This document shows positions 6,207 to 57,360 of a DNA stretch of 64,000 bases, piece by piece (position 1 is the first letter of the stretch; each line of letters starts with the position of its first letter). Source of the DNA: Tachypleus tridentatus (lineage: Eukaryota; Arthropoda; Merostomata; Xiphosura; Limulidae). The position numbers and the translations under genes were made by a program. Below the pieces are notes generated by a model. It saw nothing but the letters and a program-made list of their open reading frames with translations. It made no database searches and was not told the DNA's origin. The stretch spans positions 62,363,558-62,427,557 of the forward strand of contig NC_134825.1 in the NCBI RefSeq assembly GCF_004210375.1. The letters run 5' to 3'.

Positions 6207-6312
6207 TGGTTTCTGAAGAAGAAAATCAAGGAACGATCTTTGTCATGTCGCCGAGTGTCTAGGAGAAGAAAACAAAGTAGTACTAGTCAGGAAAATTCAG
6301 AATTAAGTGAAG
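6207..6312 (+). CDS. smg5: smg5 exon A: basic patch and LSEG linker
   Basis: A strong acceptor (CTGTTTATTTTTCAG) opens a frame starting TGG. It reads through a basic stretch ([19 protein letters not shown]) and an acidic/serine stretch ending NSELSEG. Human SMG5 has a similar basic run followed by DLSEG at the matching place. The exon ends in phase 1 at GAAG|GTGTGG, which fits the phase of the next exon. The donor is the first of 14 near-identical copies in a 38-bp tandem array. Confidence 0.75.
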
Positions 6313-9300
6313 GTGTGGTACTAGTCAGGAAGATTCAGAATTAAGTGAAGGTGTGGTACTAGTCAGGAAGATTCAGAATTAAGTGAAGGTGTGGTACTAG
6401 TCAGGAAGATTCAGAATTAAGTGAAGGTGTAGTACTAGTCAGGAAGATTCAGAATTAAGTGAAGGTGTAGTACTAGTCAGGAAGATTCAGAATTAAGTGA
6501 AGGTGTAGTACTAGTCAGGAAGATTCAGAATTAAGTGAAGGTGTAGTACTAGTTAGGAAGATTCAGAATTAAGTGAAGGTGTAGTACTAGTCAGGAAGAT
6601 TCAGAATTAAGTGAAGGTGTAGTACTAGTCAGGAAGATTCAGAATTAAGTGAAGGTGTAGTACTAGTCAGAAAGATTCAGAATTAAGTGAAGGTGTAGTA
6701 CTAGTCAGGAAGATTCAGAATTAAGTGAAGGTGTAGTACTAGTCAGGAAGATTCAGAATTAAGTGAAGGTGTAGTACTACTCAGGAAGATTCAGAATTAA
6801 GTGAACGTGTTAAATTTTTTTTATTTTAATTTAACTACTACATGAAATAAAAGTAGATAACTACCAGTTCTGTAGTGCCTCACTGGTACAGCAGTAACTC
6901 TACAGATTTACAATTAGTGATTTAATTCCCCTTGGTGGACTCAGCAGATAGCCCAATGTGGCTTTGCTATGAGAAAAACACGTGCCATATCAATTAGTAA
7001 AAGGTAAAAAGATTCTTACCCAATATAGTTATCATAGAAAACTTTAATTCAACATTTTCTAACTCAAAAATACTTTAGAATTGGTTATTTTATCATTTTG
7101 TGACATTTTTTTGATAAAAATTGGAATGAAAATTTAAAAAATGTAAACACTTGTTTGCATACAGCTTTGAGGGGAATCTCTTGTAAATGGTGCAACTTTA
7201 AATTATTTTCAAATTTTCATTCCATCCCAAAACATTGATTTATAGATAAATAAACTATCATACTTTAAATACATAATTAAACATTTTCTGTTTCTTTCCT
7301 TATTTGTATTATTACAGTTTTTCAATTCCACCCTTTTATAATGTCACAGCATGTAGTCTGAACTACAATGAAGAAAAGCATAAAGAATATAGCTACAAAT
7401 AACGTTTGAATGCCATTAGATGGAGCATATTATAAACTGTTTCCATCAGTGTGAAGCAAGTAAAATATTTAAGCAGAGGTCCTCAGAGATGAACAGAGGA
7501 ATCTTGTGAAAAGTTTAGTAAACATAAAACTAAACTAGAGATCTGATACTTTTATTTTTAGTTTCTTTAGGTGTGTTTCTCATTGTTAAAAGGTGTTTTT
7601 TGTATTAAATTATATCTGTTTGAAAGCTATGAAAAGTTTCTCTTACGACCAGACATTAGTTAAATTTAGAGGGTAGTGAAGGTAACACCAATATATTATT
7701 TTGATTCAAATCCTTATTTATATTGTTAGGTTTATTGTATGTAAATAACACGAGTAAAATAACTTGATGAAACTTACATGAATAGATGGCAAATGCCTGT
7801 TGGAGAAAAACAAGTGTAGATGATAACATTTGGAAAGTCTTCCACCTCTCGTCTTCAAGTGGAAGACTTCAAAATATCATCCTCTACACTTGTGATTTTA
7901 CAGCAGTTATCGTCCATTCAACTAAGTTTCATCACAAATACTCTGTTTAAACAAACAATCAAAGAATAGTAAAACAACGTGTTATTTTGTGAAGATAGAT
8001 TGGTCAAGTCTAAGAATATGGTTAGCAAACATATTTTTAACTACTCTGACCACTGTGGTGGTGATACCTTTGTTAAAGTTCATGATGGTAGGTTATGAAT
8101 AAATTTTTGTAACAGAAAGAGCCAGAAAATTTGAAAAGTATTAATTACTGAAGAAGGTATACAACAAATCTCAATAAAAAATGTATTTATTTTCATTATG
8201 ATTGAATATTCATATCTTTTATCAGGCTTGCAAAACTGTGTCAATAAAGCACAAACTATCTGTACAAATGTAGCTGTTCTGTTTTCACAGTTTTCAGAAA
8301 ATATTTACAGGGTCATCACTGTGACCAGTTGTACTTGGCACAGTTTATAATTTGTCAAATTAGCTCTTCTGAGCCATTAGGTTTAAATGTTTGTGCGTTA
8401 GCACAGATGTGACACCATTTAAGAACTTTCATGAAATTGTATTTTGTAAACATGAAAATGTAATTATATAAAGCTGTAGATTTGAATTTGGGTATTTGTC
8501 TGTAGTTTGCACTAAATACTATAAAAGTGATTTGCAAGTCAAGATAATGAAATTTCATATCCAGAAGTACTTAAAATATTATAATTGTAAATTATTCATA
8601 GTGAAATGGTAAAACACCCTTTATGTTAAAAATGTAAAACTGTGACAGTTATGCTGTCCAATATAGTGATTAAATGCTAACAAAGCTTTATAGAAACTTA
8701 ACGATAACCATGATGTCACATTACATTTCCCAGATAAATATTCTTCAAGATTTTAATACATTTCAACTTGTGACTGGTTAGATATCTCACAATAATGTTA
8801 ATATGATATTTTTATTTCAAAAAAATTTCAGGATTGGTAATTTTCAATTTTGTTTGTATAAAATACATCTTTACTATAAAAAATATTGTCTGGTCATTAG
8901 TAACTTTAGTGACACAGATTTTATCGTATCATTATTATTTATCTCGGATGCATTGCATGGTATTTTTAAATGTTGTAAGTATATATTTTAAAGTGTCTAA
9001 CAGATTGTATTATTTCTGTATAAAATTGTTCAATATTATTACGTTCTTTATGACAGACCTTTTTTACTTTGAAAATAATTTATGTTTTGCAATAGATTAT
9101 GTCAAACAACCTCTTGTTGGATTAAAGTTATTAATGGTATTTATCAAGTTTTGGACTTCATCATAACAATGACCATAACAGTTTAAAATAGTTCCAGTTT
9201 ATCTTCATTTTTATGACTTCTAATAGATCAGATATTATTATTTCTTTGTTTTTTCTTGTCACATTTTTGAGGTTTATTTCAGTAATAACTTTATATTTTT

Positions 9301-19200: not shown

Positions 19201-20560
19201 AATCTTTTTAACATTATAGTAATATGTGCACATAAAAAAATGTATTTAATTTTTAGTAAATATGAGGCCTCTACTCTAACGTTTTAGCTTTCTTATTCAT
19301 TTCTACCGTAGATTTTTGTTTATTTCATTTATTTCTTACTTTATGTATTGATCAACACTTGCCACAATCAGGTCAAACTGTGAACATCATGATTTCTTTA
19401 GAGTTACATTCAAGATTTGATTAAACTATGTTGTTATTATGTATGAATAAAGTTGGCATCAGAATTTAATTAATATTTTATAAACTTTAAGTTCTTAACT
19501 TTACAAGGATTTATTTTTAAAATGCCCAGTTTCTTTTGATATGAGAATGTGATACTTGCTTTGCAGGTTTTTCTTCTTCTCTGATTTATTTATCAACTCT
19601 CTGAAAAGTACAAAATTTAACATAAATTACTCATTATGATATAGATATTACTCAGGCAAAACATAATTTTCATAACCTTCTTGTTACTTGTTTACAGAGC
19701 CATAAACCAGAAAATCAGAACCACCTTGCAACACCCATCTGTCATATCCTGTCTTACACAAATTGCCAGTAGTTCACTTGGATATTTTATACCATATTAT
19801 TTATAATGAATGGAAAGCCAAGGCTGTAATCTATAAAATGATGTATTTTTGTACATTGTCTGTTTCCATTTTTAGTTTCACATTTGTTCTCACTGGCATC
19901 ACATCAACAAGCTCAGCTTGATTTTGAGGCTCTTATCACATAGCTAGAAAGCCGGAAAAATTATGATAATTATTGGAGATGTGTAATTCATCCATGTAAT
20001 TTTTCTTTATTTTCTGATGTACATCATATAATAACAATTAATAAGTTAGATGAGGTAAGATAAAGAGAAACAATAATAAACATTCTTCACAAGATTTTTC
20101 TTACTGTTGTGTAATTTGATATGGTAATTTAAGCTTTGAGTTTCCAAGTAACTTACTACTTGTATGTGATGGGATTATTAGTTGGAGGCAGTTCAAAGGG
20201 CAATAAAATTTAAGTAAAAACAGATGTCTACTGTTTAAATGTAATTTGATGTTACATGTGAAGTTGCTTGAGAATGAAAAATGAAAAGATAATTTAGGTC
20301 AACCTTGTATATAGGGTACTGAAAAGTAAATTTTATAATTATTGAAAAGGTTTTTAGAGATTACATAAATTAGTAAATTGTCAAATGAATAAAAGTATTT
20401 TTAATTTTAACATGAAAGTCACTTTGCACTTGGACTAGTTAATAAAACTACTTGATAAATTCAGAGGCAAACCTTTATTAACAAGTACTTCATTAAAAAT
20501 ATGTATTTTTTATATACAGAGGTCTTGTAATGTTTACTGCCAAATTGTGTGAAAATATTA
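16256..20560. other. No firm coding sequence; expected end of smg5 not found
   Basis: Two exon-like segments follow good acceptors. One is at 18,191-18,305 (see its own entry). The other starts at 19,699, where the acceptor TTGTTTACAG opens a frame HKPENQNHLATPI that ends at a stop after about 24 codons but needs a phase shift to join exon H. Neither has clear family similarity. The stretch at 17,160-17,340 is less AT-rich and may be an unidentified repeat. Confidence 0.45.
18191..18305 (+). CDS. Weak candidate for the next smg5 exon
   Basis: The acceptor TTGTTTTACTAG and a one-base leftover join exon H in phase to give R-YRVLLVTNGRLNLKYVW and so on, ending GTAAAG|GTAATT in phase 0. Human SMG5 has YIRCQKEV here, so only the first residues agree. 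It could equally be chance. Confidence 0.2.
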
Positions 20561-21092
20561 AAAGTAATAGTATGGAAATGATAATGAGTATAAAATTGTT
20601 ACAAACTATTTTATATGGTAAATAGGAATAATATGGAAATGATAATGAGTATAAAATTGTTACAAACTATTTTATATGGTAAATAGGAATAATATGGAAA
20701 TGATAATGAGTATAAAATTGTTACAAACTATTTTATATGGTAAATAGGAATAATATGGAAATGATAATGAGTATAAAATTGTTACAAACTATTTTATATG
20801 GTAAATAGTAATAGTATGGAAATGATAATGAGTATAAAATGGTACAAACTATTTTATATGGTAAATAGGAATAATATGGAAATGATAATGAGTATAAAAT
20901 TGTTACAAACTATTTTATATGGTAAATAGGAATAATATGGAAATGATAATGAGTATAAAATTGTTACAAACTATTTTATATGGTAAATAGTAATAGTATG
21001 GAAATGATAATGAGTATAAAATGGTACAAACTATTTTATATGGTAAATAGGAATAATATGGAAATGATAATGAGTATAAAATGGTTACAAAC
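20561..21092 (+). repeat. 61-bp tandem array, about 8.7 units
   Basis: The unit starts ATATGGAAATGATAATGAGT, continues ATAAAATTGTTACAAACTAT, and ends TTTATATGGTAAATAGGAATA. Two unit versions alternate (GGAATAATATGG or GTAATAGTATGG; TTGTTACAAA or TGGTACAAA). The same multi-unit pattern repeats, so blocks of several units were duplicated together. Confidence 0.95.
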
Positions 21093-21139
21093 TTGGTTTA
21101 TTTGACCAAGCTCATGTGAATAAGATTAATTAAAAGCAG

Positions 21140-22689: not shown

Positions 22690-23653
22690 AATGAGGTGTA
22701 TATTTTAAATAAATTTCATCAGTTTCTATTAAAGCATTCTTGTCAACATTCACAGAATCATCTACATTAATCTTCTCAGTAACAGTTTGGATTTCACTAT
22801 AATTGTCATAACAAACAAATTCTCCACAATATCCACCATTATCAAAAATAAATCTTCAGTTTCAAAAGCACTATATTACGTATTCATCTTTTACGCACTT
22901 GATTGAATGACTTAAAAATACAATTGCATCTAACACAAATTTTTATGGTAATTTCAGATGTTCTCTTACAGTCGTTCATGTTTGCAATACTATGCTAAAG
23001 CATCAGTTTTCTATATTTCAATTGTATACACTGTATAATTCCATTATCTAGCGACTGTAGAACTGACGTTGTACTTGGAGGTAGAAAGACTAAACGAACA
23101 TTTGAAAGTTGAACTTTTCGGCGACAAGTTGCATTATCTGGGAAAAGTAGAAATCTCCTATTTTCTTGTACAATTCTTGATTTAATATGAACCAAAATTC
23201 CTCGAATATAGCACCTGTCATCATCACTTTATTATTCGCTTTCCATTCCACAGGAAATTGATTGTTTCTTAAATTTTTGAGACAGCGCAAATTTTCACTT
23301 TTGCTTATCACCCACGGTTTCTCTAGTTTTCTATTAGCAATGCCACCAAAAATACAGTCAATCGTTCTTTCGAATAGCGACCCTCGGAACAATGACGGCA
23401 GAAAAAAGAACAGAATATAATTAACCAATACTTACTGCAACAAAATTTCCAAGAAGTTATTATTATTTAGACAAAGTATTAATCAGATAAGAAATAGATA
23501 TTTAATGAAAAATATTTTTTCCGCCCTATTCAGGTTCTAATACTACTTCTTGATAGATGAGACATATGAAAGGTAATTTTCCGTTGGTTTTATGCTGGTT
23601 CCGCCATTAGTAAGGCCTTTTATAACAATTTCTTTCTTAGACAGGATTTACTG
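22690..23653 (-). mobile_element. Tigger/pogo-type DNA transposon remnant
   Basis: Two overlapping minus-strand frames carry the DDE core: RFLLFPDNATCRRKVQLSNV then RLVFLPPSTTSVLQSLDNGI and IQCIQLKYRKLML. This is the Tigger/Jerky signature (DN.P.H, LPPNTTS..QPLDQG). The upstream frame has NNKVMMTGAIFEEFW. A frameshift separates them near 23.15 kb. The 5' end is a terminal repeat, CAGTAAATCCTGTCTAAG read on the minus strand, next to TA at 23,654. The stretch at 22,690-22,900 matches the related element at 62.8 kb. Confidence 0.88.
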
Positions 23654-32263: not shown

Positions 32264-32382
32264 TTATATTTTTAAAGAGTTACAAGCATTATAACAATCA
32301 AATATTATGCGATCTTCAATGGCATCGAGGAAATCTTGAGCACATAAATATTCTTCTTTGATTAGTTGAGGATTGGTTTGAC
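32264..32382 (-). CDS. Cys-rich secreted peptide gene, candidate last exon
   Basis: Read on the minus strand, the acceptor TTTTTTGTATTTAG opens QTNPQLIKEEYLCAQDFLDA then IEDRIIFDCYNACNSLKI and a TAA stop. It has three cysteines on helix-like spacing and a composition unlike the surrounding DNA. The exon needs a phase-1 partner, but exon 4 upstream at 35.1 kb ends in phase 0. Either an exon of 3n+1 bases is missing, or there is a frameshift, or this exon belongs to another gene. No copy was found on the right side. Confidence 0.5.
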
Positions 32383-35300
32383 CTAAATACAAAAAATCAC
32401 ATGTTAGGTAGTTAAAACACCTCTGCTCGGCATGGCCTGGTGAGTTAAGGCCTATGACTCGTAATCGGCTTAAGTAATTATTCTTATAATACGATTTAAG
32501 TATCCTAATAAAGGGGATATACATGTACCCTTATTTGAAAATATTTTCAAACAATTATTATTTTAGTATCAATTGCAGTTTCTAGAAAATAAGCTAGAAC
32601 CATAAAATGTAACACAATTTTTCAGTAGAGGGTGCTCGACTCCTAATCAGAGGGTATCAAATTCGAATCCACATCGCATCAAACATGCTTGCCATTTCAG
32701 CAATGAGTATGATATAATGTGAAGGTCAATCCTACTATTATTTGGTAAAATTAGCACAAGAGTTGTCTGTGGGTGGTGAAGACCAGCTGCCTTCCCTCTA
32801 CTCTTACACTGCTGAAATGAGTATGGCCCTCGTGTGGTTTTGCGCGAAATACGAAAGAAACCAAACCAATCAAACACATTAAATAGTTAAACGGCAGTAA
32901 ATATAATGTTAATCCAAAGTGTTGAAAATAACAAGATATATACACAGAGAGTTTGAATCTATATTTCAATTTATATATTAATTTACAACTTTATGTAATT
33001 TGATAACTCAGAAGACTGAATAAAAAATATATAATTATAGCATCAATATGTACATAAACTTAAAACAAATGTAAAGATTACTCCATATTCGTTTGTTATG
33101 AATACACATCACTTCGTATTAAATTAAAATTTATGGCAAATTTGTTGTAAATTTTCAGAGTACCCAAAGGTAAAATTTGTTTCACAAAATTTCCTCCTAC
33201 ACTCGCAGGTTGCCAAAGCCTTCATATATATATTTTAATAAATATATGTACATGTAACTTATTTAGATAAATTTCAAATAAAACATTGTTCTTATCATAT
33301 GGCTGTCACCAATTAAGCTGCATGAAATATAACAAAAATAATTTAATACGTATCACTATGCACCAAAAACAAAATATATTTTTGTATTTTATTATATATA
33401 TATTTACTCAGAAAACTAAGAGAAATAGCACTACAATGAAAATTCCATAGAGTCGTCAAGCTATTATTTCACTAATTCTTTTATTTTAAATTTATAAATT
33501 TAGTTAACATATATTTCATTGTAATTTTTGAGGTTCTCATCAGATGCTTTACTAGGTACTACATAGTACAAATCTGTATATATGTATATCTGATCACCAA
33601 TTTAATGATCTCTGACAAACAATTAATTGGAAAATTTGGTTTCTGAAGTTCTAAAATTTGTTAGTTTAGGTCGTCTTTCTTTGACACATACGTCTCTGTG
33701 ATCACACATTGTTATAACCTAAACAGTAACCTAAAAATAACATATTTTATGCATTTATTTTAACGCCCTTTTACCTGTAGGGCATTATAATATTACTGTT
33801 AGTCTCACTATTCGTTGGTAAAAGAATAGCCCAAGAGTTGAAGATGGATGATGATAACTAGGTGCCTTCCCTGTAGTCTTACACTTTGCTGAATTGGAGA
33901 CAACCGACGAACATAGCCCTCGTGTAGCTTTACGCGAAACAAACAAGCATTTATTTTAAATATTCGTTATGATTCGAGGGAAAAACTGTGGTCTACCTGG
34001 TCCGGAAATTCACTGAAAAGTGATCATCGTATCTGTATCCTGCTACAACACGTAACTAAAAGGTTTAAAGGCAGAAATGCTATATTATAATTAATTTTAT
34101 AAATAGATTAACAATACAGAAAGCAAGTGAAAAATATTTTATTCATAATTTTTATACTTTTCCATATTCTGCATAAAGTGTTAGAAGCGACAAGCGTACG
34201 AATAAGTTTGGTCTTCACGTCCGATTCGTCTTTCAATAAAATGAGATTTTTTACTGTTGACTGCGATTCTGAAATAAATGAAATTCCTGACTTAAAAAAT
34301 GATAATCAAAAACAATAATGTAATCATAAATAACATTTGTCAAACACCACAATAAACTTTGAAAAAGTAAAACACCGAAATAGAATATTTTATTTCGTAA
34401 CAAGAATCAATCAGTAGCTGAGAGATTAAAAATATAAAACAAACAAAGTCCTCAACCTTGTTTTTCAATTTATTTTATACAACCCAGTTTCAGTAACTAT
34501 ATTAAACATTCGTTTGAGTTCGATAAATAATGTTTCACGAGTCAACTTAAAACACGTTTCAACGACCAAATGAAAATACTTGGTTGTATAATCGAAACAC
34601 AATATTCTACTTTTGATTGGTTATTTCCAGTGTTAAACATCTATGATAACCCTTAAGAAAACAGAAGCTATTCTAAATTAAGAACATGTTAAATACCCCA
34701 ACTGATAGTTTTACTTTTCTGTTCAGATAGTTTTACTTTTCTGTTCAGATAGTTTTATTATAACTTTGTTTCTAGAGAAATGCTACATTGGACTACCTGT
34801 TGTATCCACTGCGGGAAATCGAACGCCAGTATTTAGCGCTGTACGTTAGTCTCACCAGAGGACTTATTATAACTTGTTCAATTATAAGCATTGTACGTAT
34901 GTTATACTCGCGTATAATGCGGGATTAGATTATTACACTTTAAAACATTTAAGCAATCAAATCCAACATATTTTCGTTTTATCAAAATATCTACAAATTA
35001 TATGAGTAACTTCATCTAATAATGAAATTTATAAGTGAAAAGTTCATGATAACTTAAATCCTCTTCAATTATAAATTAAATATTTTACACAATTTCATCT
35101 AATACCTTCAACATAATTAGATTGAACTCACCGGTTGGGAACACGTGATCATATTCAAATTGATAAGCATTCCAATGCATGATTCATTCTAGAAGGAGAA
35201 ACAGAACATTAATAACGAGACATTCATGAGCGAGTTTTTTATTGCATACAAACTATTTAGGTTTTCATAAAAATCTATATAAGGAATATATTTTAAACAA

Positions 35301-38300
35301 AACAACACGGGATGATTGTAAGTACTAGTTATTAAAGTTAATATAAACTAGAAATGAACTTTTATGAAAATAACTGTCTGATTTAGGCTATTCAAATATA
35401 TATTTGTTTCTCATAGTCTTAAAGACATTAAATGAAGTTCTCCAAGTATCTAATAAGTAATCAAATATGTTTTATAAATAGTTTAAACGGAATCCATGAT
35501 AAAATGATATTTACTTTCATGGTATTCAATGTCTACTCTTTTTTTATATAAATGTCAGAATACTGTTTAGAAGGAAGAAAAAACATTATAATATTGTAAC
35601 ACTGAGACATGTATCAATTTTCGATTTTTAAAATTAAGACATTCTATTTTAAAAAATTATACTTTAAAAGCAAATTTTGAAAAAAAAATAAAAAAAAAAA
35701 CAACCAAAAATCACATGTTAGAATTAAAGTCAGAAAGTGAGAAAAATGATTTCTTTCAACTTGTACATGAAATAATATACCAATCAACTAACGGAAAATA
35801 ATTGACACATTGACATTCAAAAATGCGATCTGGTAGTAGTAGACTTTGAATATGCCATGTATGAGAAAAATAAAGTTAGGAGGCAAATTTTTTCAACCAT
35901 TATTTTATGAAGTATTTTTGCAAGGGTTTTAACTTTTTTGACGTCCTTCCAATATCAATGTTTGTGATTGTGTAGGATAAATTTATTCTTCATCTTACAA
36001 GCTTGGGAATATTTATTTATCCTAGTAAAATGATAAATATAATAGAGCATAATCTATGAGAAATATCATAAGTAAATCAAGAAAAATATCTACTTGCCAC
36101 AGCTTGTATCACAGCTTCCATACTATCTCTGGTCTGTGAAAAAGGAGAAACAACAAAACAAAAACCAGTTTGTTCTTGATAGAATAAAACATATTTCGTG
36201 TAAAGTGTAGCTTTGTATTCCTAGGTTTCCTGTAAACAAATTCTTTAGATAGATATCATAAGGAATTCTTCTTTCGAGAATTTGATTTTAGTATCTGTTT
36301 AATGTCTTCTACAAAATACAAAAATGCTCAAAGAGCATGATGAAATAGGTCAATAATATGGAGGAATAACTTTTTCAAAGCTTGTATATATAAATCAATG
36401 TTTCGTCACATACTCAAAATAAAGATCAACAGCCATAACCACTTTATATGCTTTTTAGGTGTACCGTTCTCTTGGTTGTTGGTTGTAAATAAAATAAAAT
36501 AAATACAACCAATAGTGAATTAATAAATTCATAAATATTCAAATTCTTATATCATTCTACGTTATTAGAATGAAACAATTTTGTGCAGTTTCATTTTTAT
36601 TTATCTAGATGTGATGGTTATTTGCTTATGGTCTCTTAACGAATAGATACCCTAATCATCTGTCATTTATTTTCAATTTATCACAAATATAATACATATT
36701 CATTTTACAAAATGTATCTCTATTCAAAGCATTCAGAATTGTCCTTCCATGAATGTAATATACCCTATACATAAGCTACAATCACTTAAAAGTAAACTCT
36801 TATTCTTGAAAAAAGACCAAAGCGTATTTTCTCACTCATGTAAGGGTCTACGTTTGCCAGCAATGCATCAAATATAAATAATAAATTAAGAGTATCTAAA
36901 AAACCCTCCTCCTGGTTTGGGGTTGTGCAGTAGGCTAACAATTTACTCACTTAAAAAACCAGCCTGTTAATGAGTCTGCAAGCGATTGCGGCCCTATGTT
37001 CCTTCATGCAATCGAGAGGCTTAATGTAATGTAATGTAAATCTAAAAAACCGGGAAATGTATATTTATTTTAAAACACCTTCATTCATTGTTTTAAAAAT
37101 AAAAGCTTGAATGCAAATGTCTTAGTTTTCTTATAGCAAAGCTAGATGGGGCTATCTGCTCTTGCTCCATGGGGGATATTTCCACTGATTTTGGCATTGT
37201 ACCTCCGAAGACTTACCTCGAAATCACCAGGGAACATTTGACATTAAAACCATTATTTAGGGTTATATGTATTTAATATGGACTATATATCTACTCACTT
37301 TCTTTTTCGGATGTAATTATTATTAAAAAAGTAATACTTGTGTGCATTTGTTAAGATCAACAAATGAAAGGTTATTTTTTATAGAGTATGTTATAATATA
37401 AAAGTCTGTTTAATGTAGATATTATCAACTTATTTATTTTGTGATTAAATATTTTATGATTGTATAGTTTGTTCATAACAAGACAGTTAAACGTTTTAAT
37501 TTATAGAAAATGATATGACAAGTTTAGTTACGTAACTGGCCTGGCATGGCCAAGCGTGTTAAGGCGTGCGACTCGTAATCTGAGGGTCACGGGTTCGCAT
37601 TCCCGTCGCGCCAAACATGCTCGCCCTTTCAGCCGTGGGGGCGTTATAATGTAACGGACAATCTCACTATTTGTTGGTAAAACAGTAGCCCAAGATGTGG
37701 CAGTGGGTGGTGATGACTAGCTGCCTTCCCTCTCATCTTACACTGCTAAATTAGGGACGGCTAGCACACATAGCCCTAGAGTAGCTTTGTGCGAAATCCA
37801 AAAAACAAACAGTTATGTAACTCGGTAAGAGTCGCACGTTGTGGAGATTATGTTAAGTCATGCGAAATTTATAGATGTCGAGGATATGTCGCAAGCTGAC
37901 GATTGAGTTATAAATATATAAATAATGTTAGACGAGTAAACAGCAGACGGATAAACAGAGAGAACTCGCGAAACTACGTTTGATTTGTTTGTTTCGAATT
38001 TCGCGCAAAGCTACACCAGGGCTATCTGCGCTCTCCGTCCGCAATTTAGATGAGTAAGCCTAGAGGGAAGACAGCCAGTCATCACTAATTCTTGGGCTAC
38101 TATTTTACCAACTAATAGTGGTATTCACTGACACATTACAACACCCCTACGGCGAGCTTTTTGGTGTAAGAAGGATCCGAAAACCCGTGACCCTCTAATT
38201 ACGTGTTGATTACCTCAACCACCTGGACATGTCCGGCCGTTACGCTAAATAAAATGATGTAGAAGTTGTATTCGGACATACAAGGCCTAACTGTTGATAT

Positions 38301-41300
38301 ATATCAGAGCGATATTAACGATGTTGAAAGAGATAAAACGAATAGTGCATTTTGTCAAATAGAGTTCTAAAGTAATTTAACCTGCCTGTGGACAAAAAAT
38401 AGACAATCATTGGAATTCTACGAAATTACAAAAGAAGAAGCAGACAATTTTGAAAGTAAAGAATAACCGTGGTAACTCGACGAAACGCTATTGAACTGTG
38501 CTCCGTTTGGCGACAGGAAGAAAGAAAAATAGCTCGTCTTCTAAACTGAAATTCTAAAGCAAGTAAATAGGTTTAAGTGTAATTTTGAGAAGAAGTAGAG
38601 AACTGTACAGAATCTATGATATGTCTCTGATTATCTATAGTGTAAAGAATTTGTTCTACACATGTTTAACTACTTCCTAATATATACATTATTTTTTTAA
38701 GTAAGGGAATTGAGTGCTGTTTTTATTTTATCAAATTTACTGCCAACAAGTCACACACGTCTACTTTAGTAAACTTCCTGATAGATGGCGGCCCAGCTTG
38801 GATTGTATGGTTCTGAACGGCGATAGACCAAGAGTGCGAACGACATACGTTGGCACACAGAATTTTAAGAATAGGAGAAAGGAGAGGATGAAAACACAGT
38901 GAAAACGAAAGAGAAAGTTAAATACACTGTGTAATAGTAAAGTTGAAAAGGCATTATATTTACTATTTCAGGCCTCTGACCGCACGTGGACTGATCTCTA
39001 CATGTGCACCTATATAGTAAAAAAACCTAAGATAAATCAGCGTAACTATGACTTATGGATTCATGACAATGTCCTTTTATCACCAAACTTACTTCTTACA
39101 TTGCATTTGTTTATAACACGTTTACAAAAGCTTTGATAAGCCACTCTAGTGACGACATATTTCCTAAAACAAAACAATTTAAATACTATTTGCTGTTAAT
39201 TTTGTGAAACACTTATTATAAGAAATCAAGTACACATTGCATTATTCCTCAAGTAAATTGCATATTTGTATAAATTTATTTATCTTTAAGCACATATTTA
39301 ATGGCTACATACTACATTACAGACAATATTTGAGATTTTTGTGAAAATTTTCACATTTTAATTCGAACAATAAAAAAAAATTTATTTAAAAAGCCATTAT
39401 AGTAATCGAGTGAATTCGACACAGGAACAAATTTTTAGTAATAACTGCATTAATCGTCCACCTATCCAATAAAAAAAACATTCACAATTATATTTATTTT
39501 TGTTTTGTTAAATAAAAAAAAGTATTGTGCAAATACCTTACTTTGAGTTTCACATCAGGTGTAAGTAATCCTGATGATTAAACAAATAGCTCATTACGTT
39601 AAATATTGAAAATTCTTTTGAAACTATTCAAAAGCGATTGAGTTTCGAGTATCTTATTTGAAATTCATTGCACCTTCTGTGTGCTAACTCTTTTATCATG
39701 GACCATGGATCCACAGTTTACTGATGAAATTTATTACTTCTTTTTATTAAATATATCCATTAATACATTTATTACATTAACGGTCAATATATTCTAATTA
39801 AATCCAATTGGGGACGACCACTAGTAAGATATTTTAGACACTGTACCAAACCTTCTTCGGTTTTATATGTATTTCAATGGCAGCTACACGACTGACAAAT
39901 TTAACTTTAAACCATAACATATGTCACAGCAAAGAACGCCTTCCACCTTTCATTCAATGTAATGATTTCCTTATCCTGCTAGTTCAACTTATAACTACTA
40001 ACTATATTCTCTTTGCTTACAAACTAGTAATAAATACTCCAACTTAAAATAAACAAACACCCCTAATCCTAAACGTCTTTGACCCTAATATATTTCCAAC
40101 AATCATTCCACATCTGTATGCCACACTTCTACTCTATTTTGAGACTCCATTTCTATATACTGCTTGTTGTGTAAGTAAATGTGACCATTTTCCTAAACGC
40201 CGCATTTTGTAGAAGTTATGAGTTCCACTTCTATTTCTAGCATCTTTTCCTTCAGCGCTAAATCTCAAGAACCCTGTTTCATTCGTAAACCTTTCAACAC
40301 AAAGTTTCATCTGTTTTTGTTTTTAACAAAGAAGAAGGTGTTCGTAATCACAAATCCACATCAAATCAAATTTAACTTTGTAATTAAGCAATTTGGAAAA
40401 CAAATTGTGTGAACAATTACGATAACAACAAAAGTCTTCAGTTATTTCCTTCTGAAAATAGGCCTGGCATGGTCAAGCGCGTGAGGCGTGCGACTCGTAA
40501 TCCCAGCCGTGTAGGCGTATAATGTGACGGTCAATCCCTCTATTCGTTGGTAAAAGAGTAGCTCAAGAGTTGGCGGTGGGTGGTGACTAACTGCCTCCCC
40601 TCTAGTCTCACACTGCAAAATTAGGGACGGCTAGCACAGATAGCCCTCGAGTAGCTTTGTGAGAAATTCCAAAACAAACAAACAAATCCTTCTGAAAAAT
40701 AATAAAAATTATTTTTTATGCTGTGTAACATGATCGTTTAACCATTGCTCTCAAAATCAGTAATGGTATATTTGGAACCTATACCACCGTATAAAGTTCG
40801 TGAAGATGCTGCAAAACTTACTTCTTCAGGCAGGCAACCAAAGATCTGGTGTTTCAGGTCGTCATCGACACAGTCTGAACCAGCTGCTAAATCAGGTTTA
40901 CTTGAATCAGTTATCTTTGTATTTTATTAAAATAATCATTGGACTATGTCTGGTTATAATGGTATGTTATCCGCTTTCATATTCTGCTATATTATATTAA
41001 TATCTCAGAAGACTGCTATTTTGATCCATGAGCGATATATCAAGACTGTTTAATACTTTTGAGACATCCGATATCGATGTTACATGTTCACCTTTCATAC
41101 ATAATTGAACAGTAGTATATTTCGGCTTAAAATTTATCATTGTCAAAGTGACTTGCAGTGGATTGGTAGCAAGTTCATTGACTCAGGCTACATCCACCGC
41201 GATGAACAGGACACCGGTTGGCCTTACATAGATTTTCATTAATACAAACCAATATAGTCAAACTAGGTGATTGTTCCGGGGAAATTAAATGTTATTTATG

Positions 41301-42011
41301 AAAGTTAAATCAGTGCTGTCGAGCTATCAACGTAGACAAAATATTATTTCATTTCTAGTTCTCAAACGCGCATTATTACTCCAAGTAACCACATAATGGA
41401 TATTTTTGGAATATCTTCACGAACTACTGAAAGTGAATAGTTTAAATTCATTGTCACTCTTCTGACATATTCTTAACCTAAAATTATGAAGTGTAATTCT
41501 ATTATTTTCCATAATGTTGCAATAGAAAGATGCGAACGTTGTATTTCCATATCCATACTCCGGTACTACACACATTGAATCACACTCAGTCCTAACATGG
41601 GTAAAAAATGAACCATTTTTAAAAATATAAACAACGTCAAAAAAAAAACGCTTATAGGAAGTTAAAAAACACAGCACGTAATTCCTACAGAGGAATAGCG
41701 TGGGGTAATTCAAAACTATATGTCATATAGAAAGCTTAATGTGAATTTTGACATGTGTTTGACATTAACATATTCGATTTAATTTAAACAAAAATCAATC
41801 TCCTTCAAGAAATTATATTGAGATTCTTATAAAAAAACACAGACTCACCACAGATGACATTTCGGATAGAACCCATGATCATCATTACCTCACTTCTGCC
41901 TCTTCGTGCTGGACCATTTTGATTAGAACGTGGTCGTCTTTCAATTCTACCTTTGTGACCGCTAGCAATAACAGCGAAAATCAAGACCAGGACAATAAAT
42001 ATAATCTTCAT
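32264..42011 (-). CDS. Microplusin-like secreted Cys-rich peptide gene (five candidate exons)
   Basis: Exons on the minus strand are 42,011-41,849 (or -41,889), 40,914 (or 40,874)-40,822, 36,133-36,098, 35,188-35,132 and 32,382-32,264. They encode a signal peptide (MKIIFIVLVLIFAVIASG), a basic segment (GRIERRPRSNQNGPARRGR), then DCVDDDLKHQIFGCLPEE, TRDSMEAVIQAV, NESCIGMLINLNMITCSQP and the last exon. Exons 2-4 join in phase 0. The pattern C, DD.L, C, PET, AV...C, C resembles microplusin, a tick copper-binding antimicrobial peptide of all-helical fold; that match is from memory and is modest. The mismatch before the last exon means it may be a pseudogene. Confidence 0.45.
32420..32880 (+). repeat. 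Degenerate SINE family 1 copy, interrupted
   Basis: The head CTCGGCATGGCCTGGTGAGT at 32,426 stops at ACTCGTAATCGG. A second start, GTGCTCGACTCCTAATCAGA, at 32,631 continues through CCTACTATTATTTGGTAAAA and CGTGTGGTTTTGCGCG. About 160 bp of unrelated sequence lies between. It could be one copy split by an insertion or two fragments. Confidence 0.75.
33765..33950 (+). repeat. SINE family 1 body, headless; paired with 52.97 kb
   Basis: It begins at AACGCCCTTTTACC and keeps CACTATTCGTTGGTAAAAGA through CGTGTAGCTTTACGCGAAAC. It shares private changes (ACTTTGCTGAATTG, GATGATGATAACTAG) with the minus-strand copy at 52,965-53,225, which marks them as duplicates of one insertion. Confidence 0.8.
33951..34439. 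other. No gene supported
   Basis: A 63-codon open frame at 34,127-34,318 starts hydrophobically (KNILFIIFILFHILHKVLEA), but its first codon is GTG and there is no duplicate or promoter-like context. It is not called. Confidence 0.4.
34775..34865 (-). repeat. SINE family 2 copy, shared by both B blocks
   Basis: On the minus strand: CTAACGTACAGCGCTAAATA, GTTCGATTTCCCGCAGTGGA, then TGTAGCATTTCTC. The plus-strand counterpart is at 57,595-57,690. Confidence 0.75.
35132..35188 (-). CDS. Cys-rich peptide exon 4
   Basis: The acceptor TGTTTCTCCTTCTAG and donor CCG|GTGAGT bound 57 bp. The only open frame with the preceding exon encodes NESCIGMLINLNMITCSQP, with two cysteines 11 residues apart. The right-hand copy at 57,274 is extended by loss of this donor. 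The alternative third frame would match the phase of the last exon but has a stop at its first full codon. Confidence 0.55.
36098..36133 (-). CDS. Cys-rich peptide exon 3, 36-bp micro-exon with GC donor
   Basis: The acceptor TCTCCTTTTTCACAG is followed by 12 codons, TRDSMEAVIQAV, and then GTG|GCAAGT, a GC-AG type donor. The inverted copy at 56,290-56,325 encodes TRDSIEAVIQAM and has a GT donor (ATG|GTAAGT). Of three frames only this one is open in both copies. Confidence 0.6.
36906..37039 (+). mobile_element. 5'-truncated non-LTR insertion with TAATG tail
   Basis: About 134 bp starting CTCCTCCTGGTTTGGGGTTG and ending in a TAATGTAATGTAATG tail are flanked by 12-bp direct repeats (ATCTAAAAAACC at 36,894-36,905 and 37,040-37,051). 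The right-hand duplicate block at about 55.74 kb has the empty site. The short target duplication and simple tail are typical of RTE-type retrotransposon 3' ends; the class is inferred. Confidence 0.85.
37125..37235 (-). repeat. SINE family 2 copy, shared by both B blocks
   Basis: On the minus strand: TCGGAGGTACAATGCCAAAA, GTGGAAATATCCCCCATGGA, GCAGATAGCCCCATCTAGC, TTTGCTATAAGAAAAC. It matches the plus-strand copy at 55,550-55,655. Confidence 0.8.
37538..37812 (+). repeat. SINE family 1 full-length copy
   Basis: CTGGCATGGCCAAGCGTGTT with GGGTTCGCATTCCCG as B box, followed by the complete body and an AAAAAACAAAC tail. Confidence 0.92.
37983..38243 (-). repeat. SINE family 1 full-length copy
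   Basis: The minus-strand head GGCCGGACATGTCCAGGTGG leads into a degraded B box, and the body ends at TTTGTTTGTTTCG on the plus strand. It faces the copy at 37.5 kb. Confidence 0.88.
38575..39590. repeat. Duplicated block, inverted copy of 1,070-2,100
   Basis: Anchors include TATCTATAGTGTAAAGAATT (38.64 kb), GCCACTCTAGTGACGACATA near 39.15 kb, and AGTAATCCTGATGATTAAAC near 39.57 kb. It contains the 46-bp exon-like segment at 38,964-39,009 on the minus strand. Confidence 0.8.
38964..39009 (-). pseudogene. Exon-like 46-bp segment, partner of 1,587-1,634
   Basis: The acceptor tract TTTTTTTACTATATAG and donor ATA|GTAAAT bound a frame CTCRDQSTCGQRPEI. It lies between exons 2 and 3 of the cysteine-rich peptide gene, but its length would break the phase-0 chain, so if spliced in it would disrupt the product. 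It may be an alternative or dead exon. Confidence 0.35.
39591..40459. other. No gene recognised
   Basis: AT-rich sequence, part of the 7.5 kb between 39.59 and 47.1 kb that has no counterpart at the matching point in the block at 1-2.1 kb. Confidence 0.5.
40460..40685 (+). repeat. SINE family 1 copy missing its B box
   Basis: CCTGGCATGGTCAAGCGCGT and ACTCGTAATC are followed directly by CAGCCGTGTAGGCG, so about 45 bp around the B box are deleted. The body from GGTCAATCCCTCTATTCGTT to the AAACAAACAAAC tail is intact. Confidence 0.9.
40822..40914 (-). CDS. Cys-rich peptide exon 2: DCVDDDLKHQIFGCLPEE
   Basis: On the minus strand the frame ITDSSKPDLAAGSDCVDDDL then KHQIFGCLPEE ends at a perfect donor, GAAGAA|GTAAGT, in phase 0. 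Two acceptors are possible. AG before 40,914 gives 31 codons in phase 0 and pairs with the first donor of exon 1. AG before 40,874 (TGGTTCAG) pairs in phase 1 with its second donor. A plus-strand frame over the same bases is a shadow. Confidence 0.6.
41849..42011 (-). CDS. Cys-rich peptide exon 1: signal peptide and basic segment
   Basis: The ATG at 42,011 begins MKIIFIVLVLIFAVIASG, a textbook signal peptide with cleavage likely after ASG, followed by GRIERRPRSNQNGPARRGR. Two donors are possible: GAG|GTAATG (exon end 41,889, phase 0) and TGTG|GTGAGT (exon end 41,849, phase 1). The open frame runs past both into the intron. Secretion is well supported; the mature function is inferred from later exons. 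Confidence 0.65.
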
Positions 42012-42061
42012 TGTTAAGAGATGAACACTTTTGTTTGATCTTATACCAGACTGTGAGGGGT

Positions 42062-42069
42062 GTATATAT
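42062..42069 (-). promoter_or_regulatory. TATA box upstream of the secreted-peptide gene
   Basis: TATATA lies 52 bp upstream of the exon 1 ATG on the minus strand (context CTACATATATACACCCCTC), which would place a start site about 20 bp before the ATG. A second TATAAGA lies closer to the ATG but leaves no room for a leader. Confidence 0.5.
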
Positions 42070-43884
42070 GTAGCAAAATCTTTTAACCAGTTTGGTCTGC
42101 ATTCCCTACATTTGGTACCCTTATTGGACGACTAATGCCTGCATAATTACTTCGGTGTTTAAACAGCTGGTAAAAATGTGAATTTGTAGGTTTAGAGAAC
42201 GAAGTTTGAATTTGCATACAAAATGTACTTAATAAATGAGTGATATATAAGCTCTTTAATTATCTTGGCTGACAGAAGATTGTTTAGACAGATGGTGTAG
42301 TAGGCGTGGTCTCAAGATGCAAATATATAGTATTTCATCTTCTCTTGTGTTTTTTAATTGCTTCGACATTTGTAACCATGACAAAATGATAATAAGTAGC
42401 TACTGAAATGATATATTTCACGAATATTTCCTGTATTTTATTGTAACAGTTTTATGTGGGTGCTGTTTCATTATGTTTCTCATGCTATATACACAGAGAT
42501 TTGATGTTGAATAAAGTTTTCTCTCTGGTTCATAACAAGTTTATGCAATTATCATAAATCAAGAAAACATTCGTCAGTATAAGTATTGTAGAACAATAGG
42601 AAATAAAAGTATTCGTATGCTAAGTGGCAGAGGTTAAACATTTCATTTCCGATATTCAAGTTGTTTATAAGTTAGTCTAAAGTAAAAATTACTGACAAAC
42701 AAGCCTATCTAGCTAATTCGGTTGGCCAGGGACGACTTACTTGTTAGCATAATGTACTGAAAATCCAGCATCCAGGTTTATAATTCTAATATTCGAGATT
42801 CTATTTCTAGAGGGCACAGCACAGATAGCTCATTGTGTGACTTTGCATTTAAAAACAACAAATATAAAAAAATAAATGAGCAAATCGCATTAATTTACAG
42901 TAAAATAGAAACAAAAAAAAAACCGGTATACATTTTTGGGGACACCTCCTAGTAAAAAGGTCACAGTTAAATCCTACTACCAGATTAGAGAAGTATAATG
43001 CTTGTAGATTGATATTGTTGACTAATTACCTTCTCATGTCGTCTGAATTTTAGTGACTGTTAGCAAGATAGACCTTTCAATAGCTTTGTGCGAAATCCTA
43101 AGCTGACAGACAAATAAGTTATTCTCACAGTTCTTTGATGTTTCTAAACACAAGTGAACCAGAATAGAACCGAGTTTGGAATAGATATTTACATATTGGA
43201 CTATAACACTGATATTGCATGTTTCTTTCGTGTATTCTTGCTACATAATTTCTCTTTACACTTTGCAGCTGTTAATACATTATGAAATTGGCGTTGGAAT
43301 TCCAATTATCGATTAGATTCAAAATTTGGCAGTAAATACCATTAACTAGCTGATTTCCATCTAGTCTGTAAATTAAACTAAAAATGTTTTTGTGCAACTT
43401 TACCCGATTATCCAAAACTAAGAAGAAAACTAAACACTGGTTATAAATGTATTAATTTAAAATACTGTTGTTACAACTACAATTGAGCAACCAAACAATA
43501 AAGTCTCTCTAACATGCAATTCATAAAGTTAAACTCTGCCCAAAACAACGTCAAATATGTTACCATTAGAAATTCCTATATGTTTTATTGGTTTTTCTGC
43601 TATACTTGAACTACAACTGTACTAAAATGCTATGCCTTATTAATACCTCCATGGAAACGTTTTTCCTGTATAAACTACTATCACACGTCAGTTAATGCCT
43701 TTCTTACTTCATTCACGACTGTATAACTGAATTTAATATAAATTTCATACAAGTGGAACTCTAAGAACTTTTGTTTTTTATTCCGTGCCTAGTTTTCTTT
43801 CTATCTCTATTTAAAAGATTAGATAACCACTCAAAACAAAATCATTACAAATGTTTATACTATCACAGGTTTCAAACACGCGAC
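42070..43884. other. Mostly featureless; one SINE family 3 copy
   Basis: A family 3 SINE fragment at about 42,775-42,862 (+) has GTTTATAATTCTAATATTCG, then GAGGGCACAGCACAGATAGC and TGTGTGACTTTGC. Nothing else was recognised. Confidence 0.6.
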
Positions 43885-56289: not shown

Positions 56290-56325
56290 ACCAGAGATAG
56301 TATAGAAGCTGTGATACAAGCTATG
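56290..56325 (+). CDS. Cys-rich peptide exon 3, right copy
   Basis: CGTTCTTTTCGCAG|ACC...ATG|GTAAGT gives 12 codons, TRDSIEAVIQAM. It differs from the left copy at two of twelve residues and has a standard GT donor. Splice sites are kept in both copies, which argues for past or present function. Confidence 0.5.
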
Positions 56326-57273: not shown

Positions 57274-57360
57274 AAGGAATTGTGCATTGGAATGCTTATG
57301 AATTTAAACACGATCCTGTGTTCCCAACTGGTTCAATCTAATTATGCTGAAGGCTTTCGC
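57274..57360 (+). CDS. Cys-rich peptide exon 4, right copy, donor lost and extended
   Basis: After TGTTTTTCCTTCTAG the frame reads KELCIGMLMNLNTILCSQL and then ten further codons (VQSNYAEGFR). A four-base deletion turned the ancestral donor GGTGAGTTC into GGTTC. The frame stays open to CGC|GTAAGA at 57,361, a replacement donor in phase 0. No signal-peptide, exon 2 or last-exon copy was found on this side, so this is probably a partial gene. Confidence 0.45.

Follow-up and report, generated by a model that had tools for sequence, protein, structure and literature searches.

Crustacean penaeidins and arasins join a Pro/Arg-rich arm to a cysteine domain, cystine-knot peptides are built on a compact six-cysteine knot, insect odorant-binding proteins (OBPs) carry six cysteines with the spacings C2-x3-C3 and C5-x8-C6, and microplusin adopts a five-helix fold; from horseshoe crabs themselves, coagulogen is known. 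According to the available part of the source, microplusins have in common six cysteines, as well as an HH start of the mature protein and a His-rich C-terminus that make up the copper site (PMC6509419). The microplusin label is used loosely, since one tick protein described as microplusin-like lacks the histidines, keeps four of the six cysteines and reaches 60 % to another such protein, as stated in the accessible portion of its report (PMC11596346). Tachystatins and Tatritin are secreted cysteine-rich peptides of horseshoe crabs; the accessible text on Tatritin gives 68 residues, two exons and a C-terminal cystine-knot β-sheet, and describes its gene as unannotated in the genome (PMC8984021).

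The gene described here lies within a stretch of 64,000 nucleotides of Tachypleus tridentatus DNA that was analysed as a whole and is referred to as the window (C1:62363558-62427557 in a 2.17-Gb assembly). Like Tatritin it is cysteine-bearing and unannotated; unlike Tatritin, it is coded by five exons, and its cysteines stand far apart. We put at roughly 50 % the probability that it encodes a small secreted protein, most likely a host-defence effector. Even after decades of mining horseshoe-crab hemolymph for effectors, a gene cluster with five tiny exons per gene can elude gene prediction. Exons of the coagulin family are present in the same genome, the best at E 1.5e-25 on C11, a signal that none of 14 control genomes gives, and the hemocyanin family has 25 matches there, three of which were compared with the PDB and have the hemocyanins 1LLA, 3IXV and 1OXY as best chains; both findings indicate a horseshoe crab.

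Exon structure, splice sites and promoter region

Exons 1-4 lie on the minus strand where the original prediction had located them, and paralogs, here designated by letters, repeat their order, orientation and splice positions. Their contents were likewise confirmed, with a signal-peptide-like start and a basic segment in exon 1, C-VDDDL...C-LPEE in exon 2, TRDSMEAVIQAV in exon 3 and NESC...C in exon 4. Exon 1 (41849..42011) comprises signal-peptide-like codons 1-18, the basic segment (19-42) and MMIMGSIRNVIC; its phase 1 donor, G|GTGAGT, is kept as G|GT in 11 of 13 cluster copies, being lost in F and G as well as in an old copy at 41.99 Mb. This exon sits inside a 108-codon stop-to-stop frame (41805-42131), at odds with the view that none of the exons could be found by open-frame scanning. 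Exon 2 (40822..40883, minus strand), encoding (A)GSDCVDDDLKHQIFGCLPEE, was aligned at 13 of 14 places, the 41.99-Mb copy being left out. The exon places implied by the predicted junctions hold, but the acceptor of exon 2 had to be corrected to CAG|CTGG, as is common to the aligned copies (CAG is also present in the old 41.99-Mb copy); the exon ends in phase 0 at GAA|GTAAGT.

Exon 3 (36098..36133, minus strand) was aligned in 16 copies (of 18 rows, two short pieces being dropped), 13 of which have a GT donor (GTG|GTAAGT) and three a GC donor, namely the window copy and the pair I/M. Exon 4 (35132..35188, minus strand), which encodes NESCIGMLINLNMITCSQP, was aligned for 17 of its 18 matches after the partial one at 62294836 was dropped, and 16 of these 17 copies have a phase 0 donor of the form GTAAGT, GTTAGT or GTGAGT (CCG|GTGAGT in the window copy). 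At about 32440-32880 and 40500-40690 (minus strand) the introns hold an interspersed repeat, which we take to be a horseshoe-crab SINE.

A TATATA element (42063..42068, minus strand) is found 57 nt 5' of the ATG. Among the nine copies examined, out of 14 with exon 1, it is present in eight, at -57 in seven and at -61 in copy B, and copy F is without the exact motif. The heptamer TCACAGT (42050..42056, minus strand), 12 nt from the TATA element start to start, occurs in all nine upstream sequences; the canonical spacing of an initiator from TATA is ~30, and the heptamer was dropped as a candidate initiator because it lies too near the TATA element. A crude pattern for NF-kappaB-like sites found none in the 358-400 nt upstream of the nine copies.

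A paralog cluster with intact and broken copies

A protein search of the genome with exon 1 returns 14 matches, of which 13 lie at C1:61.94-62.41 Mb and the last at 41.99 Mb, and DNA searches return at least 18 matches for exon 4 and at least 20 for exon 5, all within C1:61.935-62.458 Mb. In the 200 kb of the cluster region and the small further pieces in which paralogs were examined, exons 1-4 follow one another in 12 copies (A, B, C, E, F, G, H, I, K, L, M and N); copy D has exons 1-2 within the DNA examined and the remaining copies are partial. Half of the 12 (A, B, E, H, K and L) are intact, in that the ATG is present, the splice sites can be used and the frame stays open to the end of exon 4, and the other half are broken, by frameshifts, stops or lost donors in C, F, G, I and M and by loss of the ATG in N. 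Copies F and G are similar but oppositely oriented, as are I and M (C1:62193475-62215000 noted), which suggests inverted segmental duplications in the cluster.

The copy at 41.99 Mb (L037, C1:41994001-42004000), 20 Mb from the cluster, is an old decayed relative in which the start codon is ACG and exon 2 carries two stops; a search for exons 3-5 gave nothing convincing within its 10 kb. The window itself contains a second, fragmentary copy, on the strand opposite to the window gene, of which only exon 3 (56290..56325, plus strand; TRDSIEAVIQAM) and exon 4 (57274..57330, plus strand; KELCIGMLMNLNTILCSQL, its GTRAGT donor disrupted by a small deletion) were found.

Because an exon order and splice positions that repeat in paralogs are not expected by chance, the sequence makes it very likely that the gene is real, and that it is one copy of a duplicated, fast-turnover horseshoe-crab gene family.

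The last exon

With exon 4 ending in phase 0, the reading of exon 5 is VKPILN followed by a stop: the coding part of the window copy spans 32362..32382 (minus strand), with TAA at 32364-32362, in phase after the acceptor TTTAG|GTC. In an alignment of 17 of the 20 exon-5 matches (62125839, 62248780 and 62328375 being left out), the acceptor AG is kept in 13 copies, as TTTAG, TGCAG or ATAG. Four copies (61952584, 61979964, 62103703 and 62457528) fail to align in their upstream part, and these have lost the acceptor AG too. Read in phase, exon 5 meets TAA at codon 7 in nine of the 17 copies, window included, and a stop at codon 8 in two; in the other six (E, H, K, N, O and Q) it is open to ...IIFDC(D/Y)NAC... 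The remainder of the exon (32264..32361, minus strand), non-coding in the window copy, matches the C-terminus ...IIFDC(Y/D)NAC and contains near 32330 a 1-base deletion, found in four of the 17 copies (window, 62002944, 62080735 and 62309137; carriers lettered A, C, J and L).

The original prediction had ended the protein in a three-cysteine tail, YLCAQDF...DCYNAC (GQTNPQLIKEEYLCAQDF...DCYNAC), and had argued from it for novelty. This tail is out of phase, requiring one base that the two splice sites do not supply, and it is open only by way of the 1-base deletion, which slips the wrong phase into the ancestral one; as an argument for novelty it dissolves into a frame artefact of the window copy, and it illustrates how an exon read out of phase can produce a plausible cysteine motif. 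An alternative exon-4 donor four bases later (CCGGTGA|GTTCAA), which would give the phase of that tail, was rejected, as it is poor when judged against the donor consensus and 13 of the 17 exon-5 copies then hit stops.

The GC donor of exon 3 and the early end, with six of 12 copies broken, mean that the window copy could be decaying. It is possible, though we doubt it, that this copy is a pseudogene of a real secreted-peptide family, of which only the longer copies (E, H and K), ending in ...IIFDCDNACNHLEI, make a working protein: the stop at codon 7 is followed by a deletion, and six of the 17 exon-5 copies stay open to the same end. Exons 1-4 of the window copy and their splice dinucleotides are nevertheless usable, the otherwise intact copies A, B and L share the end ...KPILN-stop, and a last-exon stop would not be expected to set off decay. 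The second half of exon 5, moreover, gives no clear frame signal in 15 copies, with a pairwise pN/pS of 0.68 in frame versus 0.64 and 0.50 in the other frames, nor by events, with 0.52 in frame versus 1.08 and 0.54, so that frame-specific constraint on the longer end is not apparent.

The predicted protein

The window protein has 112 residues and five cysteines spaced x4, x11, x19 and x11, the first standing ahead of a core C-x11-C-x19-C-x11-C. Its basic arm, the hypervariable segment at 41886..41957 (minus strand), reads HKGRIERRPRSNQNGPARRGRSE with a net charge of +6, and its core, VMMIMGSIRNVICAGSDCVDDDLKHQIFGCLPEETRDSMEAVIQAVNESCIGMLINLNMITCSQPVKPILN, has a net charge of -5; across the six intact copies the arm has 16-23 residues and a charge of +4 to +6, and the core ranges from -1 to -5. 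Three intact paralogs (E, H and K) have the longer end mentioned above and 7-8 cysteines in total. The number of cysteines is odd (5 or 7) in five of the six intact copies and 8 in H; this suggests a dimer or a free thiol, and a closed set of disulfides is accordingly not obvious. A furin-type release of the arm was considered on account of RRGR in A, B and D and dropped, the motif not being conserved in L, E, H and K.

To judge by the signal-peptide-like look of the first 18 residues, the protein is probably secreted, and its core is probably a bundle of short helices tied by disulfides. As a host-defence effector it may work as follows. A birth-and-death cluster would keep the gene copies, driven by a TATA-element promoter; the signal peptide of 18 residues would lead to secretion; the disulfide-tied helical cysteine core would act as a scaffold; and the cationic arm would touch the target surface and evolve quickly, with some paralogs bearing a longer end with two or three extra cysteines. 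A bolder and more tentative proposal is that the cluster represents an undescribed, horseshoe-crab-restricted antimicrobial family, in which an acidic cysteine-helical scaffold would bear a hypervariable cationic arm subject to diversifying selection; the family would number ~12-20 copies in a birth-and-death cluster, and last-exon changes would have produced a short form with 5 cysteines and a long form with 7 or 8. If expressed, it would extend the effector repertoire by a family in which a dozen natural copies allow the variable arm to be compared.

Comparison with described families

The family has no match in any library searched. What the original prediction had proposed in outline, a multi-exon gene probably encoding a secreted cysteine-containing peptide with a basic segment, stands, and this gene is without a significant Pfam or PDB relative. 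Pfam-A yields no family for the window protein at the curated cut-off, and paralog K has one sub-threshold match (DUF2689, E 0.11, 12.7 of 25 bits); a PDB profile search gives nothing significant, the best of eight matches up to E 10 being MamM (E 0.1). Six sequence strings of the family do not occur in the literature searched.

By description, penaeidins and arasins resemble the window protein in joining a signal peptide, a variable cationic Pro/Arg arm and a cysteine-stabilised domain, but their cysteine pattern is another one and the window core is acidic. Judged by spacing alone, the five cysteines (x4, x11, x19, x11) do not form the cystine-knot motif of Tachystatin and Tatritin, which has three disulfides near the C-terminus in the available part of the source (PMC8984021).

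The insect OBP spacing is absent from the window copy; the long copies alone have a C-x3-C, a single one at their end. That the family consists of carrier or recognition proteins (OBP-like, egg or seminal) instead of defence peptides seems to us improbable, if not strongly so, given that the cysteine spacing is off the insect OBP pattern and that we know of no carrier in which a cationic variable arm is a feature. Fast evolution and gene turnover would, on the other hand, also suit reproductive proteins. The OBP-like proteins and candidate carriers of chelicerates are, in the portions of the sources available, likewise small, secreted and cysteine-bearing, and are set apart from the window protein by description, not by sequence, namely by its spacing relative to the insect pattern. 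Carrier-type families are included among the small secreted cysteine proteins of chelicerates in the same portions, and a tick microplusin-like protein is linked to olfaction in the accessible text of its report (PMC11596346).

A horseshoe-crab member of the microplusin/hebraein family, acting as a copper-chelating antimicrobial peptide, is a far weaker candidate for the window gene, even though the original prediction had made this link. Microplusin (2KNJ) is also secreted, with a mature protein of ~90 residues, and by eye both proteins have an acidic DD.L near the first core cysteine and PET after the second, in the order C...DD.L...C...PET...C; the core spacing C-x11-C-x19-C-x11-C can be set beside C-x12-C-x21-C-x10-C of 2KNJ if its fourth cysteine is skipped, and in four of the six intact copies (A, E, H and K) a single His comes right after the assumed signal peptide. 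Since microplusin is itself without a Pfam match, the absence of a Pfam family says nothing on this point, and direct comparisons are the informative ones. With hhalign, 2KNJ, the one microplusin compared, gives a probability of 0.3 % and E 0.19 over 18 columns; local and end-free shuffle tests give P 0.10-0.65, with the lowest values for the out-of-phase version of the protein; and 2KNJ is absent among the eight PDB profile matches up to E 10. In place of the six conserved cysteines there are five in the window copy and 7 or 8 in the long copies, and instead of an HH start and His-rich termini the six intact copies have the basic variable arm, 0-4 histidines and no His-rich end. A sequence tie of the kind that joins tick microplusin-like proteins is missing for the window protein.

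Divergence and constraint

Divergence and pN/pS were counted on chosen or dereplicated subsets of copies, all of them paralogs from one genome. Among seven intact copies, pairwise pN/pS reaches 3.26 in the basic arm, with 0.78 in the signal peptide and 0.83 in what remains of exon 1, and exon 2, at 0.30, has the lowest value of the exons; exons 3 and 4, counted in six copies, have 0.95 and 1.03. A three-frame control of exon 2 in 10 dereplicated copies gives 0.39 in the coding frame versus 0.95 and 1.33. In the same test on dereplicated copies, frame-specific constraint was not found in exon 1 (1.33 in frame versus 0.74 and 0.73), exon 3 (1.35 versus 0.74 and 0.54) or exon 4 (0.64 versus 1.42 and 0.44). 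When changes are counted once, neither the arm (N 31 : S 5, p = 0.13) nor exon 2 (N 10 : S 7, p = 0.067) reaches significance. Relative to the decayed 41.99-Mb copy, pN/pS is 0.40 for the signal peptide and 0.80 for the rest of exon 1, and exon 2 has a pS of 0.507 and a pN of 0.330.

The arm also stands out by divergence per site, which in seven intact copies is 0.205 versus 0.113 for intron 1; of 156 windows of 72 nt only two reach its divergence, both overlapping the arm. The pair B-D behaves in the opposite way, with 5 of 51 sites differing in the arm and 133 of 885 in intron 1. These comparisons, drawn from paralogous DNA, make it likely, though not proven, that the family is coding and that its arm evolves fast and its core more slowly. 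That there is no gene, and that unrelated open stretches in repeats have been taken for exons, is hardly credible: the duplications did take introns along with exons, exons 2-4 diverge about as much as their flanks, and exons 1, 3 and 4 are without frame-specific constraint, but exon order, splice sites and the TATA element are common to copies ~11 % apart in intron 1, exon 2 has frame-specific constraint in the pairwise counts, and the signal peptide is constrained against the old relative.

Other features of the window

Rfam and tRNA scans of the window returned nothing. Nine long open frames were scanned against Pfam, one of which, at 23090-23431 (minus strand), matches DDE_1 (PF03184, E 2.3e-7) and is what remains of a DDE transposase; the other eight have no match at E 0.01, and a tenth frame, the one holding exon 1, was outside the scan. 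The window further contains a minisatellite at 6277-6810, in which a 38-base unit is repeated 14 times with 98 % matches, and a tandem array at 20559-21093 with ~9 copies of a 61-base unit and an additional 182-base period.
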